Shown: one piece after another, positions 897 to 30,307 of the stretch
How positions within the stretch are numbered: the stretch's first letter is position 1
Layout of the letters: the number at the start of each line of letters is the position of its first letter
DNA from: Antrihabitans stalagmiti
Lineage (GTDB): Bacteria; Actinomycetota; Actinomycetes; Mycobacteriales; Mycobacteriaceae
Assembly: GCF_016482825.1 (NCBI RefSeq)
Contig: NZ_JAEMNV010000004.1
Coordinates: 461,655-525,654 of the forward strand
Direction: 5' to 3'
DNA length: 64,000 bases
Position numbers and translations under genes: made by a program
Notes under the pieces: model-generated
The model's database searches: none
Told to the model about the DNA's origin: nothing
Seen by the model: the letters and a program-made list of their open reading frames with translations, nothing else

Positions 897-902
897 TACA
901 CT
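897..902 (+). promoter_or_regulatory. -10 element TACACT for leaderless Cys leader ORF
   Basis: TACACT fits the actinobacterial TANNNT consensus and ends six bases before a GTG at 909. That spacing puts the transcription start on or next to the GTG, predicting a leaderless message. No convincing -35 hexamer is visible at the usual distance, which is common in this group. Confidence 0.55.
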
Positions 903-908
903 TTTCTG

Positions 909-950
909 GTGATTACCCGCATGAGTGCCCAGGAGTGTTGTCGAGGCTGA
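909..950 (+). CDS. Leader peptide with adjacent Cys codons (putative cysteine attenuator)
   Basis: A 13-codon ORF starts with GTG and reads VITRMSAQECCRG before TGA at 948-950. Two consecutive TGT codons (936-941) lie three codons before its end. It ends 39 bases before the cysteine dioxygenase start. Leaderless short ORFs with consecutive Cys codons are a described class of cysteine-responsive attenuator in mycobacteria, and this one has the same build. CCAGGA (929-934), just before the Cys codons, can pair with TCCTGG (975-980), which overlaps the GGAG ribosome binding site (979-982) of the next gene. GAGG/CCTC (943-946/951-954) form a small hairpin with the stop codon in its loop. Ribosome position on the leader could therefore expose or hide that site. 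The pairing is by eye, not calculated. Confidence 0.6.
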   Translation: MITRMSAQECCRG

Positions 951-989
951 CCTCTGCCTTGACCAACTAACACTTCCTGGAGAAACCTC

Positions 990-1595
990 ATGCTCTCCGC
1001 ATCTTCTGTGGAAACACGTGTATCTGCTCGTCCCGCACCGCACGCCTCCCGCGACGTCTCCGATCGCGTTATCGCTTCGGCGCTTCCCACTCGCCTGCGC
1101 CCGGCCGACCTGCTGCGGCTCACCGACGAAGGCGCTGTCGACGTCCTCAACGGGCACTACGACCACCTGCTGCCATCGGGTGGGCAGTGGCCGACGGGCA
1201 ATCGCTGGGCAGTTCGCCTCAGCTCCGACGACGACGTCGACGTGTGGCTGATCAGCTGGGTTCCCGACCAATCGACCGAACTGCACGATCACGCGGGCTC
1301 CCTCGGCGCACTGACCGTTCTCAGTGGTGCGTTGTCCGAATACCGTTGGACCGGTGCGGAACTGCGACGCCGGACCCTGAGCGCAGGCGACCAGGCCTCG
1401 TTCCCGATCGGGTGGGTGCACGACGTGATGCGTGCTCCTGATGTGCCAGGTGGTTCCGACGTTTCCGAACCGACGCTCAGCGTCCACGCCTATTCGCCAC
1501 CGCTGACTGCGATGTCCTACTACGAAGTTGCCGACGGGCAGCGATTGCGTCGCACTCGGACCAAGCTCACCGACATGCCAGAGGGAGATCTGTAG
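990..1595 (+). CDS. Cysteine dioxygenase family protein
   Basis: 201-residue cupin of the type I cysteine dioxygenase family, which oxidises L-cysteine to cysteine sulfinate with an iron centre in the cytoplasm. The three-His metal site is visible: H99 and H101 in TELHDHAGS and H144 in GWVHDV. ATG at 990 has GGAG (979-982) seven bases upstream. It forms an operon with the rhodanese gene two bases downstream and sits behind the Cys-Cys leader ORF at 909-950, so cysteine supply probably sets its expression. Other thiol dioxygenases (for 3-mercaptopropionate) share this fold, so the exact substrate is inferred from the family and from the leader. Confidence 0.85.
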   Translation: MLSASSVETRVSARPAPHASRDVSDRVIASALPTRLRPADLLRLTDEGAVDVLNGHYDHLLPSGGQWPTGNRWAVRLSSDDDVDVWLISWVPDQSTELHDHAGSLGALTVLSGALSEYRWTGAELRRRTLSAGDQASFPIGWVHDVMRAPDVPGGSDVSEPTLSVHAYSPPLTAMSYYEVADGQRLRRTRTKLTDMPEGDL

Positions 1596-1597
1596 CG

Positions 1598-2047
1598 ATG
1601 ACACGAAAGCTTGCAGAACAACGACTTTCGATCGACGAGATGCTGGAGCAGGCGCGTGAGCAGCTCACCCGCATCTACGCATTCGAGCTACCCGAGGCGG
1701 TTGCGCGCGGCGCGATTCTGGTCGATATTCGACCGCAGGCGCAGCGGGTCCGTGAAGGCGCGCTTCCCGGCGCACTGGCCATCGAGCGCAATGTGCTCGA
1801 ATGGCGTTGCGATCCAACCAGTTCGGCTCGGATCGCGTTGGCGGTCGATCACGACGTCGAATGGATCGTGGTGTGCTCGGAGGGGTACACGTCGAGCCTG
1901 GCGGCGGCTGCCCTGCAGCAGCTCGGCCTACACAGGGCGACAGATCTGGTCGGTGGCTACAAGGCGATCCAAGCGGCAGGCCTACTTCAAGTCGCTTCGG
2001 GTGCAGCCCATTTCGACCGGGTGTCCGAGACCGTCGTCGCAAGCTGA
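1598..2047 (+). CDS. Rhodanese-like domain protein
   Basis: 149 residues with a single rhodanese domain. The active-site loop CSEGYTSS holds the sulfur-carrying cysteine at residue 93, and an RVREGALPGAL segment near 50-60 matches the usual R-x-GHIPGA region. Such proteins move sulfane sulfur between carriers in the cytoplasm. The start ATG lies two bases after the cysteine dioxygenase stop with GGGAGA upstream inside that gene, so the two are cotranscribed. The pairing suggests handling of sulfur released from cysteine. The donor and acceptor cannot be read from sequence. Confidence 0.88.
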   Translation: MTRKLAEQRLSIDEMLEQAREQLTRIYAFELPEAVARGAILVDIRPQAQRVREGALPGALAIERNVLEWRCDPTSSARIALAVDHDVEWIVVCSEGYTSSLAAAALQQLGLHRATDLVGGYKAIQAAGLLQVASGAAHFDRVSETVVAS

Positions 2048-29520: not shown

Positions 29521-30307
29521 GCTTGAAAACAGTACCCGGCCGACAGAACCGAGAGGGGTGCGTCAGGTGTTGCACGACGAAGGTGGCTCGGGAGCCCCGA
29601 TCGTGCTGTTGCACGGACTGATGGGCAGCGCGCGCACCTGGCGTCGTCACGTCCCGTGGTTGCGCGAGCACGGCCACATCTACACCTTCGACGCCGCAGG
29701 CCACGGCAGACCCGCGCCGACGCACCTCACCACCGAAGCGTTCGTCGACGACCTCGCGGCTGCGGTCGCGCCGATCGACGATCCGCTGACGGTGATCGGG
29801 CACTCGATGGGCGGTTTGCACGGTTGGTGCTTCGCTGCGGCGTACCCCGATCGAGTGACCGCCCTCGTCGTCGAGGACATGGCTCCGGACTTCCAGGGTC
29901 GAACTGCCGCGCACTGGGCGGCGATGATCAGGGCGTGGCCGCAACCGTTCCGAACGGAAGCGGAGCTCGTCGACTTCTTCGGAGATGTTGCGGGACAATA
30001 CTTTCTGGACTCGTTCAGTCGTCGCTCCGACGGCTGGTACCTCCACGGCGACGTGGACACCTTTCGTGACATCTCCGAGGAATGGGGCACGCGGGACTTC
30101 TGGGCGCAGTGGCAGGACGTCCGCGTGCCTGCACTACTGATCGAAGGCGAGTACACGATCACCCCGGAGGGACAGATGCAGCGAATGGCTGACCTGCACC
30201 CCGATTCGACCTACGTCCGCATCGAGCAGGCAGGCCACCTCGTGCACGACGACCAGCCGGACGCCTATCGCGTCGCGGTCGAAGAATTTCTCGGCGGGCT
30301 CGGCTGA
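29519..30307 (+). CDS. Alpha/beta hydrolase (Rv3591c-like)
   Basis: About 262 residues from ATG 29519. HGLMGSARTW is the oxyanion region, GHSMGG carries the nucleophile near 97, and EQAGHLVHDD gives the His. The acid is likely in EGEYTI. The chosen ATG shares two bases with the mhuD start on the other strand and has no ribosome site. GTG at 29558 (VRQVLHDEGG) with GAGAGG close by is an alternative. Its 3' end overlaps mutY by 43 bases. Position beside mhuD is conserved in mycobacteria; substrate unknown. Confidence 0.82.
   Translation: MLENSTRPTEPRGVRQVLHDEGGSGAPIVLLHGLMGSARTWRRHVPWLREHGHIYTFDAAGHGRPAPTHLTTEAFVDDLAAAVAPIDDPLTVIGHSMGGLHGWCFAAAYPDRVTALVVEDMAPDFQGRTAAHWAAMIRAWPQPFRTEAELVDFFGDVAGQYFLDSFSRRSDGWYLHGDVDTFRDISEEWGTRDFWAQWQDVRVPALLIEGEYTITPEGQMQRMADLHPDSTYVRIEQAGHLVHDDQPDAYRVAVEEFLGGLG
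29529..29534 (-). promoter_or_regulatory. -10 element TACTGT of mhuD
   Basis: The complement of ACAGTA gives TACTGT eight bases upstream of the mhuD ATG. It falls inside the coding start of the divergent hydrolase, so the mhuD promoter is embedded in that gene. Confidence 0.45.

Follow-up and report, generated by a model that had tools for sequence, protein, structure and literature searches.

Why would a gene annotated as a destroyer of cysteine stand directly behind a short open reading frame (ORF) that ends in tandem cysteine codons? The question is raised by a locus in the window, which here means the whole 64-kb stretch of DNA that was analysed. Downstream of coaX (60-863), the -10 element TACACT is followed after six bases by the GTG of a micro-ORF whose 3' end reads CAG GAG TGT TGT CGA GGC TGA, through position 950. 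Its stop is separated by 39 bases from ATG 990 of a CDO_I family protein (hereafter CDO; Table 1). An original prediction had described this arrangement as a TANNNT -10 element, a GTG start, a 13-codon ORF ending in QECCRG and a 39-base gap. All of these parts can be read directly from the DNA, and the transcript start on the GTG is predicted.

The micro-ORF before CDO is a real and conserved feature, which the present analysis confirmed. Under a strict TANNNT it is the sole leaderless short ORF (sORF) of up to 45 codons with at least two Cys codons on either strand of the whole window. A search with a relaxed -10 element and adjacent Cys codons returned one further sORF, at 29935, after which no gene was found. 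The QECCRG-stop pattern has a single occurrence in the source genome. Positions 700-1200 of the window had no Rfam match at E up to 1.

Table 1. Positions, strand and basis of the features of the leader and its target operon in the window.
Feature	Position	Strand	Basis
-10 element TACACT	897..902	+	Direct reading; puts the predicted transcript start on GTG
Micro-ORF VITRMSAQECCRG-stop, leaderless-type	909..950	+	Direct reading; GTG 909-911, 13 codons
Tandem Cys codons TGT TGT, proposed sensor codons	936..941	+	Codon counts over collected leaders
Helix A, 5' arm, sORF codons 4-6	919..925	+	96.1% of cells paired; RNAalifold independently
Helix A, 3' arm, includes CDO start codon ATG 990-992	987..993	+	Pairing counts, RNAalifold
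Helix B, 5' arm, CCAGGA GTGTT	929..939	+	Best-arm scans
Helix B, 3' arm, AACAC-T-TCCTGG, overlapping Shine-Dalgarno GGAG 979-982	969..980	+	Best-arm scans
Helix C, 5' arm, GTCGAGGC, within codons C-R-G	940..947	+	95.5% of cells paired
Helix C, 3' arm, GCCTTGAC, just past the stop codon	956..963	+	Pairing counts
Thiol dioxygenase, CDO_I family (PF05995, 1.1e-10)	990..1595	+	Pfam profile; nearest solved 8qfl/8qfr
Rhodanese-like protein, catalytic-site Cys in VVCSEGYTSS	1598..2047	+	Profile, alignment

The leader is not confined to the source genome. A search pattern for QECCRG-stop that left synonymous positions free was found in 172 of 401 family genomes and in 16 of 31 genera, versus 4 of 401 genomes for a reversed-pattern control. 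Each genome has a single match, save for one (G282) with two. Among the matches listed, nearly all have the identical 21 bases (CAGGAGTGTTGTCGAGGCTGA), and this near-identity indicates selection on the nucleotides, beyond the peptide alone. A class-wide search that tolerated one mismatch found the pattern in 7 of 394 genomes, every one of them in the same family. CDO is present in 283 of the 401 family genomes (E up to 0.001, including some weak hits). ECCRG is encoded upstream in 48 of 52 named CDO loci; the remaining four are two Gordonia leaders with a CCR ending, G. alkanivorans with MCMRCR, and Williamsia with none. In 28 CDO loci whose genomes for the most part lack the exact 21-mer, TGYTGY is located within 300 bases upstream in 19 and is absent in nine, and these absences count against the attenuator model.

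Outside the core genera the flanks vary and the Cys pair is kept, as in CCRP, CCGA, CCPA, CCQA, CCCRS and KLCCR. In the genus g29, probably Mycobacterium, tandem Cys codons with a near stop are found in 35 of 37 loci, and the leader flanks are highly variable (VMERFGFCECCRP, MTTGRQECCGA, VMEHVGFQGCCCRS, VTDVTRTQECCQA). Exceptions to the tandem Cys near the end are L252 (one Cys and then the stop), L077 (MCMRCR) and L246 (CC without a near stop); L252 and L246 are g29 loci. One locus of genus g11 (L154) has ATG TGT TGT TGC TGA (MCCC and stop) roughly 100 bases upstream of the part of CDO that was matched, with no clear -10 element. The QECCRG leader of that genome is located elsewhere, ahead of a separate rhodanese-like gene.

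The evidence for translation of the leader comes from 166 unique leaders that stand before CDO or a regex-recognised rhodanese and contain TGYTGY followed by a stop within five codons, a definition that excludes loci without tandem Cys. ATG or GTG lies 6-7 bases after NANNNT 196 times in the Cys frame versus 7 and 4 times in the other frames, counts that are not independent because the leaders are related. Such a start in the Cys frame is found in 162 of the 166, and the fitting -10 spacing is conserved. Where several promoter-linked starts were available the one nearest the Cys codons was taken, so some of the ORF lengths (9-27) are too short. The reading frame is kept through a 12-base insertion (L052) and through 3-base deletions.

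The choice of Cys codon is also constrained. The first tandem codon is TGT in 161 of 162 leaders and the second in 154 of 162, versus a background of 173 TGT among 641 Cys codons in the long ORFs of the 52 named loci. Elsewhere in the leaders, Cys is mostly encoded by TGC (55/63). The tandem codons of g29 are TGT in 35/35 and 28/35 leaders, versus 18/105 in the background. The TGT pair is near-universal despite the preference of the genomes for TGC, and it also occurs in the hairpin-less g29 leaders and in the cysH-operon leader.

Such constraint could also be expected if the 21 bases were an RNA or DNA element (a protein site, an RNase site or a small RNA target) and the Cys-Cys were incidental. 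Within the 21-mer, third codon positions are mostly no more variable than the rest, TGT and CGA are non-favoured codons in the family genomes with the leader, and TGT is retained in g29, where the structure described below is gone. However, the starts are tied to a promoter and in frame, the indels are in frame, and the flanks of the g29 and Gordonia leaders vary freely around tandem Cys codons that are mostly retained. We consider an element of this kind very unlikely.

Three nested helices link codons 4-13 of the micro-ORF with the start codon, the ribosome-binding site (RBS) and the spacer. The original prediction had proposed that CCAGGA pairs with TCCTGG at the downstream ribosome site. 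These two segments are complementary and form 929-934/975-980 of helix B, which continues as 935-939/969-973, and the RBS-pairing element is kept in relatives. Helix A at the start-codon region is additional to the pairings proposed earlier. A hairpin at the stop codon (943-954) had been suggested as an alternative fold. It exists in the window as four base pairs (GAGG/CCTC), but CCTC follows the stop in just 3 of 70 leaders; the hairpin was rejected as a conserved alternative fold, and the conserved helix at this place is helix C. When the leader is aligned over Rhodococcus and Nocardia, as had been proposed, the leader itself, the Cys codons and the RBS-pairing element are kept, but the stop hairpin is not.

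Helices A and C were counted in 70 aligned leaders with spacers of 33-46 (51 before CDO, 19 before rhodanese only). These were taken from a set of 143 that omits L140, L141 and L166, motif loci lacking a promoter-linked start. Calibrated pair counts are restricted to helices A and C, since helix B is displaced by gaps in the alignment. Of 1050 cells in A and C combined, 1006 (95.8%, 70 leaders) are paired, versus 31.6-54.9% when the arms are slid. Cells with both sides changed number 31 versus 11.3 in shuffles, and 0 of 500 shuffles reached as high a count. Two of the five pair measures do not exceed the shuffles (both-side-changed pairs, 71/500; further pair types, 344/500). RNAalifold recovered A and C from the same alignment and did not recover B. 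The start-codon base is paired as U-A, U-G or C-G in 69 of the 70 leaders. A covariation test on the CDO tree gave at most two supported independent compensatory pairs, too few for a test. Compared with shuffled spacers, the fold energy has a mean z of -3.1 (147 of 162 leaders).

Helix B was assessed by anchored best-arm scans, in which 141 of the 143 leaders were compared. The mean longest run in the short class is 6.2 (CDO) and 7.4 (rhodanese), versus 5.1 and 5.4 for shuffled sequences, and in long CDO leaders it is 6.9 versus 4.9. Nine long rhodanese leaders have a run of 4.9 versus 4.6 shuffled, and none of helices A, B and C is clearly present in them. Long-spacer leaders were also aligned separately (A3; 61 CDO leaders with spacers of at least 60, mostly Nocardia-type). 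In this alignment 482 of 549 helix A cells are paired. Arm 2 can pair equally well with arm 1 (488/488 cells) and arm 3 (427/427), and arm 3 can largely pair with arm 4 too, with three G-C for A-U replacements. This is the layout of a 1-2-3-4 attenuator, like the classic attenuator. A repeated GCCTCGAC/TCGAGGC set in the Nocardia-type A3 leaders permits the 1:2, 2:3 and 3:4 pairings.

The cost of opening the start region (-15 to +6) was calculated for 156 of the 162 leaders. Ribosome-free QECCRG leaders require 15.2 kcal/mol in the short class (n=54) and 15.3 kcal/mol in the long class (n=55). A ribosome placed on the first Cys codon lowers the cost to 7.6 and 9.5 kcal/mol, and with shuffled sORFs it is 8.2 and 10.0 kcal/mol, respectively. 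The corresponding values of the window leader are 17.0 free, 4.7 stalled and 5.0 kcal/mol shuffled. In leaders of all kinds the free cost exceeds the stalled cost by over 5 kcal/mol in 79 of 156, and exceeds the shuffled mean plus 2 sd in 100 of 156. The g29 leaders (n=32) have kept the Cys codons and not the structure (7.2 free, 7.2 stalled, 7.6 shuffled), and 13 leaders without ECC likewise show no start-closing structure. In silico, sORF pairing closes the RBS of the window leader and of the QECCRG class, and a ribosome positioned on the Cys codons opens it; the g29 leaders do not behave in this way. Because the stalled ribosome opens the start in these calculations, the predicted sign is the canonical one, ON at low cysteine. 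The window leader and its QECCRG relatives are predicted to act by translation attenuation, being ON when Cys-tRNA is short. A transcription terminator was rejected, as no terminator-like site was found.

The original prediction had expected the canonical logic to be backwards for a gene that destroys cysteine, unless the switch is inverted. In an inverted attenuator the stall would mask the leader, the freed Shine-Dalgarno (SD) sequence would pair locally and CDO would be off, with high cysteine meaning on. This would suit the textbook role of CDO as a cysteine destroyer. It is also what a cruder first measure suggested, since the mean unpaired probability of four SD bases is 0.29 free versus 0.13 stalled (147 leaders). 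The fall was greater than 0.2 in 46% of these leaders, which counts against the attenuator model. The SD-only measure pointed the opposite way because the freed SD pairs locally when the leader is masked; in the masked window leader, GGAGA 979-983 pairs with 953-958. However, this local fold is weak against the drop in the cost of opening the window start region given above, and the average opening cost is lower after stalling in both QECCRG classes. In Gordonia sp. NB4-1Y, a cysteine dioxygenase and four sulfurtransferases are described, in the accessible part of the report, as higher on three organosulfur sources versus MgSO4, so a CDO is up, not down, in the sulfate-free cultures (PMC7661421). 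That transcriptome agrees indirectly with ON at low cysteine. The anatomy, in which a stall is predicted to free the RBS, and the accessible NB4-1Y data both point away from an inverted sign, which we regard as improbable.

A ribosome at the stop codon lowers the opening cost to 8.6 kcal/mol in the short class and 11.1 kcal/mol in the long class. It opens the start nearly as well as a ribosome at the Cys codons, and therefore dwell time matters. Relative to the ribosome-free cost, this opening would be compatible with coupling alone, in which the start region requires sORF translation to open but no cysteine is sensed, or with a nascent-chain arrest by ECCRG that responds to another signal (redox, persulfide or metal). 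The QECCRG peptide is moreover fixed in most of the collected leaders. Yet Q, E, R and G vary outside the core genera and the Cys pair stays, which argues for the codons rather than a peptide motif. A pure peptide-motif reading was rejected on the variation of the flanking residues in g29 and Gordonia, and coupling or arrest as a whole appears doubtful to us.

The leader probably belongs to the leaderless poly-cysteine class of attenuators and acts on translation, with the operon ON at low cysteine. Transcription would start on the GTG, and ribosomes would load directly and translate the 13 codons. The free RNA of codons 4-13 would fold back, so that helix A shuts the CDO start codon and helix B the RBS, with helix C stacked inside the closed fold. 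When Cys-tRNA is short, the ribosome would wait at TGT-TGT and cover the 5' sides of helices B and C; the start of CDO-rhodanese would then open, and the operon would be translated in response to the lack of cysteine.

Leaderless poly-cysteine short ORFs of mycobacteria were reportedly described by Canestrari et al. 2020 (Mol Microbiol 114:93). The leaders described here resemble them in the predicted leaderless-type start, the Cys codons near the end, the sulfur-metabolism operon and an RBS sequestered by a structure that a stalled ribosome would prevent. The leaderless-type promoter, the conserved Cys codons and the RBS pairing bear out the class that had been assigned to the locus, and the earlier interpretation is partly supported overall. 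Unlike the mycobacterial sORFs, these leaders have just two tandem Cys codons, an almost invariant 21-base end and three nested helices extending to the start codon. The target, compared with what citing papers in their accessible parts say of the mycobacterial class, also differs and is here a thiol dioxygenase and a rhodanese, or a rhodanese-like protein alone. The mycobacterial class is taken up in the accessible parts of PMC9094748 and PMC13236596. Judged from sequence and modelling, the conserved leader appears to be a cysteine-type attenuator whose sequestration of the start site is unusually complete.

A second Cys leader, of the canonical kind and with a relaxed -10 element, lies in the same genome at L283:5857-5949 (MTGPGVRLVARRHVDLKRVCSSCCLASTTR and stop). 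Its peptide ends in RVCSSCCLASTTR and stop with a TGT TGT pair, and it heads an operon of a nitrite/sulfite reductase-type protein, two PAPS-reductase-domain proteins and a GTPase-domain protein. This RVCSSCC leader shares with the window leader the leaderless-type start, TGT TGT and a sulfur operon. It differs in its 30-codon ORF and 118-base spacer, and the same in-silico test gave a small effect (8.8 free versus 7.1-7.5 stalled). A putative sulfate-assimilation Cys leader and the CDO leader coexist in one genome.

The window dioxygenase has the CDO_I profile and the HxH...H cupin ligands, with H99, H101 and H144 invariant in 27 sequences. Among solved structures the closest are those of ergothioneine dioxygenase (5.7e-13), with Bacillus CDO at 6e-6; the ergothioneine dioxygenase of Thermocatellispora tengchongensis (PDB 8qfl and relatives) is about 25% identical to it. 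Arg76 is invariant in the 27 aligned sequences and stands opposite a Ser in ergothioneine dioxygenase, so that cysteine and ergothioneine are both no more than candidate substrates. The name cysteine destroyer is a putative annotation, because the closest solved relative is an ergothioneine dioxygenase. The AlphaFold model of the dioxygenase is poor (mean pLDDT 43.6) and its fold ranking is weak evidence.

The leader stands before CDO-rhodanese or, in other genera, before a rhodanese-like gene alone without an adjacent CDO. Both units are found in one Gordonia genome (G040), where a CCR-ending ORF precedes CDO with its rhodanese (L165) and a QECCQG ORF precedes a second, separate rhodanese-like gene (L147). 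The catalytic-site Cys is kept in 4 of 11 aligned rhodanese-like proteins (window, L113, L114 and L139). It is replaced by Ser or Gly in the other seven (L122, L141, L147, L089, L142, L146 and L094), and the Cys leader is retained in these. A Pfam scan of ten such proteins left two without a hit at 0.1, and L089 and L146 fell under the Rhodanese cut-off. The assignment of these weak members rests on alignment because the Pfam hits are missing or below the cut-off.

Two rhodanese proteins are down in dibenzothiophene culture of R. qingshengii IGTS8, according to the accessible part of PMC8557817, a decrease that would count against the attenuator model if either were the window-type rhodanese. 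The rhodanese proteins in the accessible part of the MI2 paper, which was searched for expression of the window-type rhodanese, are other ones. A search of mainly open literature, mostly without full texts, found none on this leader or on CDO behind such leaders.

A structured, family-wide putative cysteine attenuator is now searchable by sequence. The need for a thiol dioxygenase and a rhodanese at scarce cysteine would most likely lie in the release of sulfur, or its relay, from another thiol. More specifically, and tentatively, the operon may serve sulfur salvage during cysteine starvation. The 'CDO' would oxidise another thiol (for instance ergothioneine or a mycothiol-derived one) and the sulfite would pass to cysteine synthesis, so that the dioxygenase would come under a Cys-tRNA sensor. 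Elsewhere the sensor would drive a rhodanese-like protein lacking the catalytic Cys, which may be a sulfur-status partner rather than an enzyme. The paradox of an annotated cysteine-destroying enzyme that is predicted to be ON at low cysteine turns the question onto the roles of the actinobacterial 'CDO' and rhodanese, and the interest lies in why these proteins would be called for when cysteine is short.
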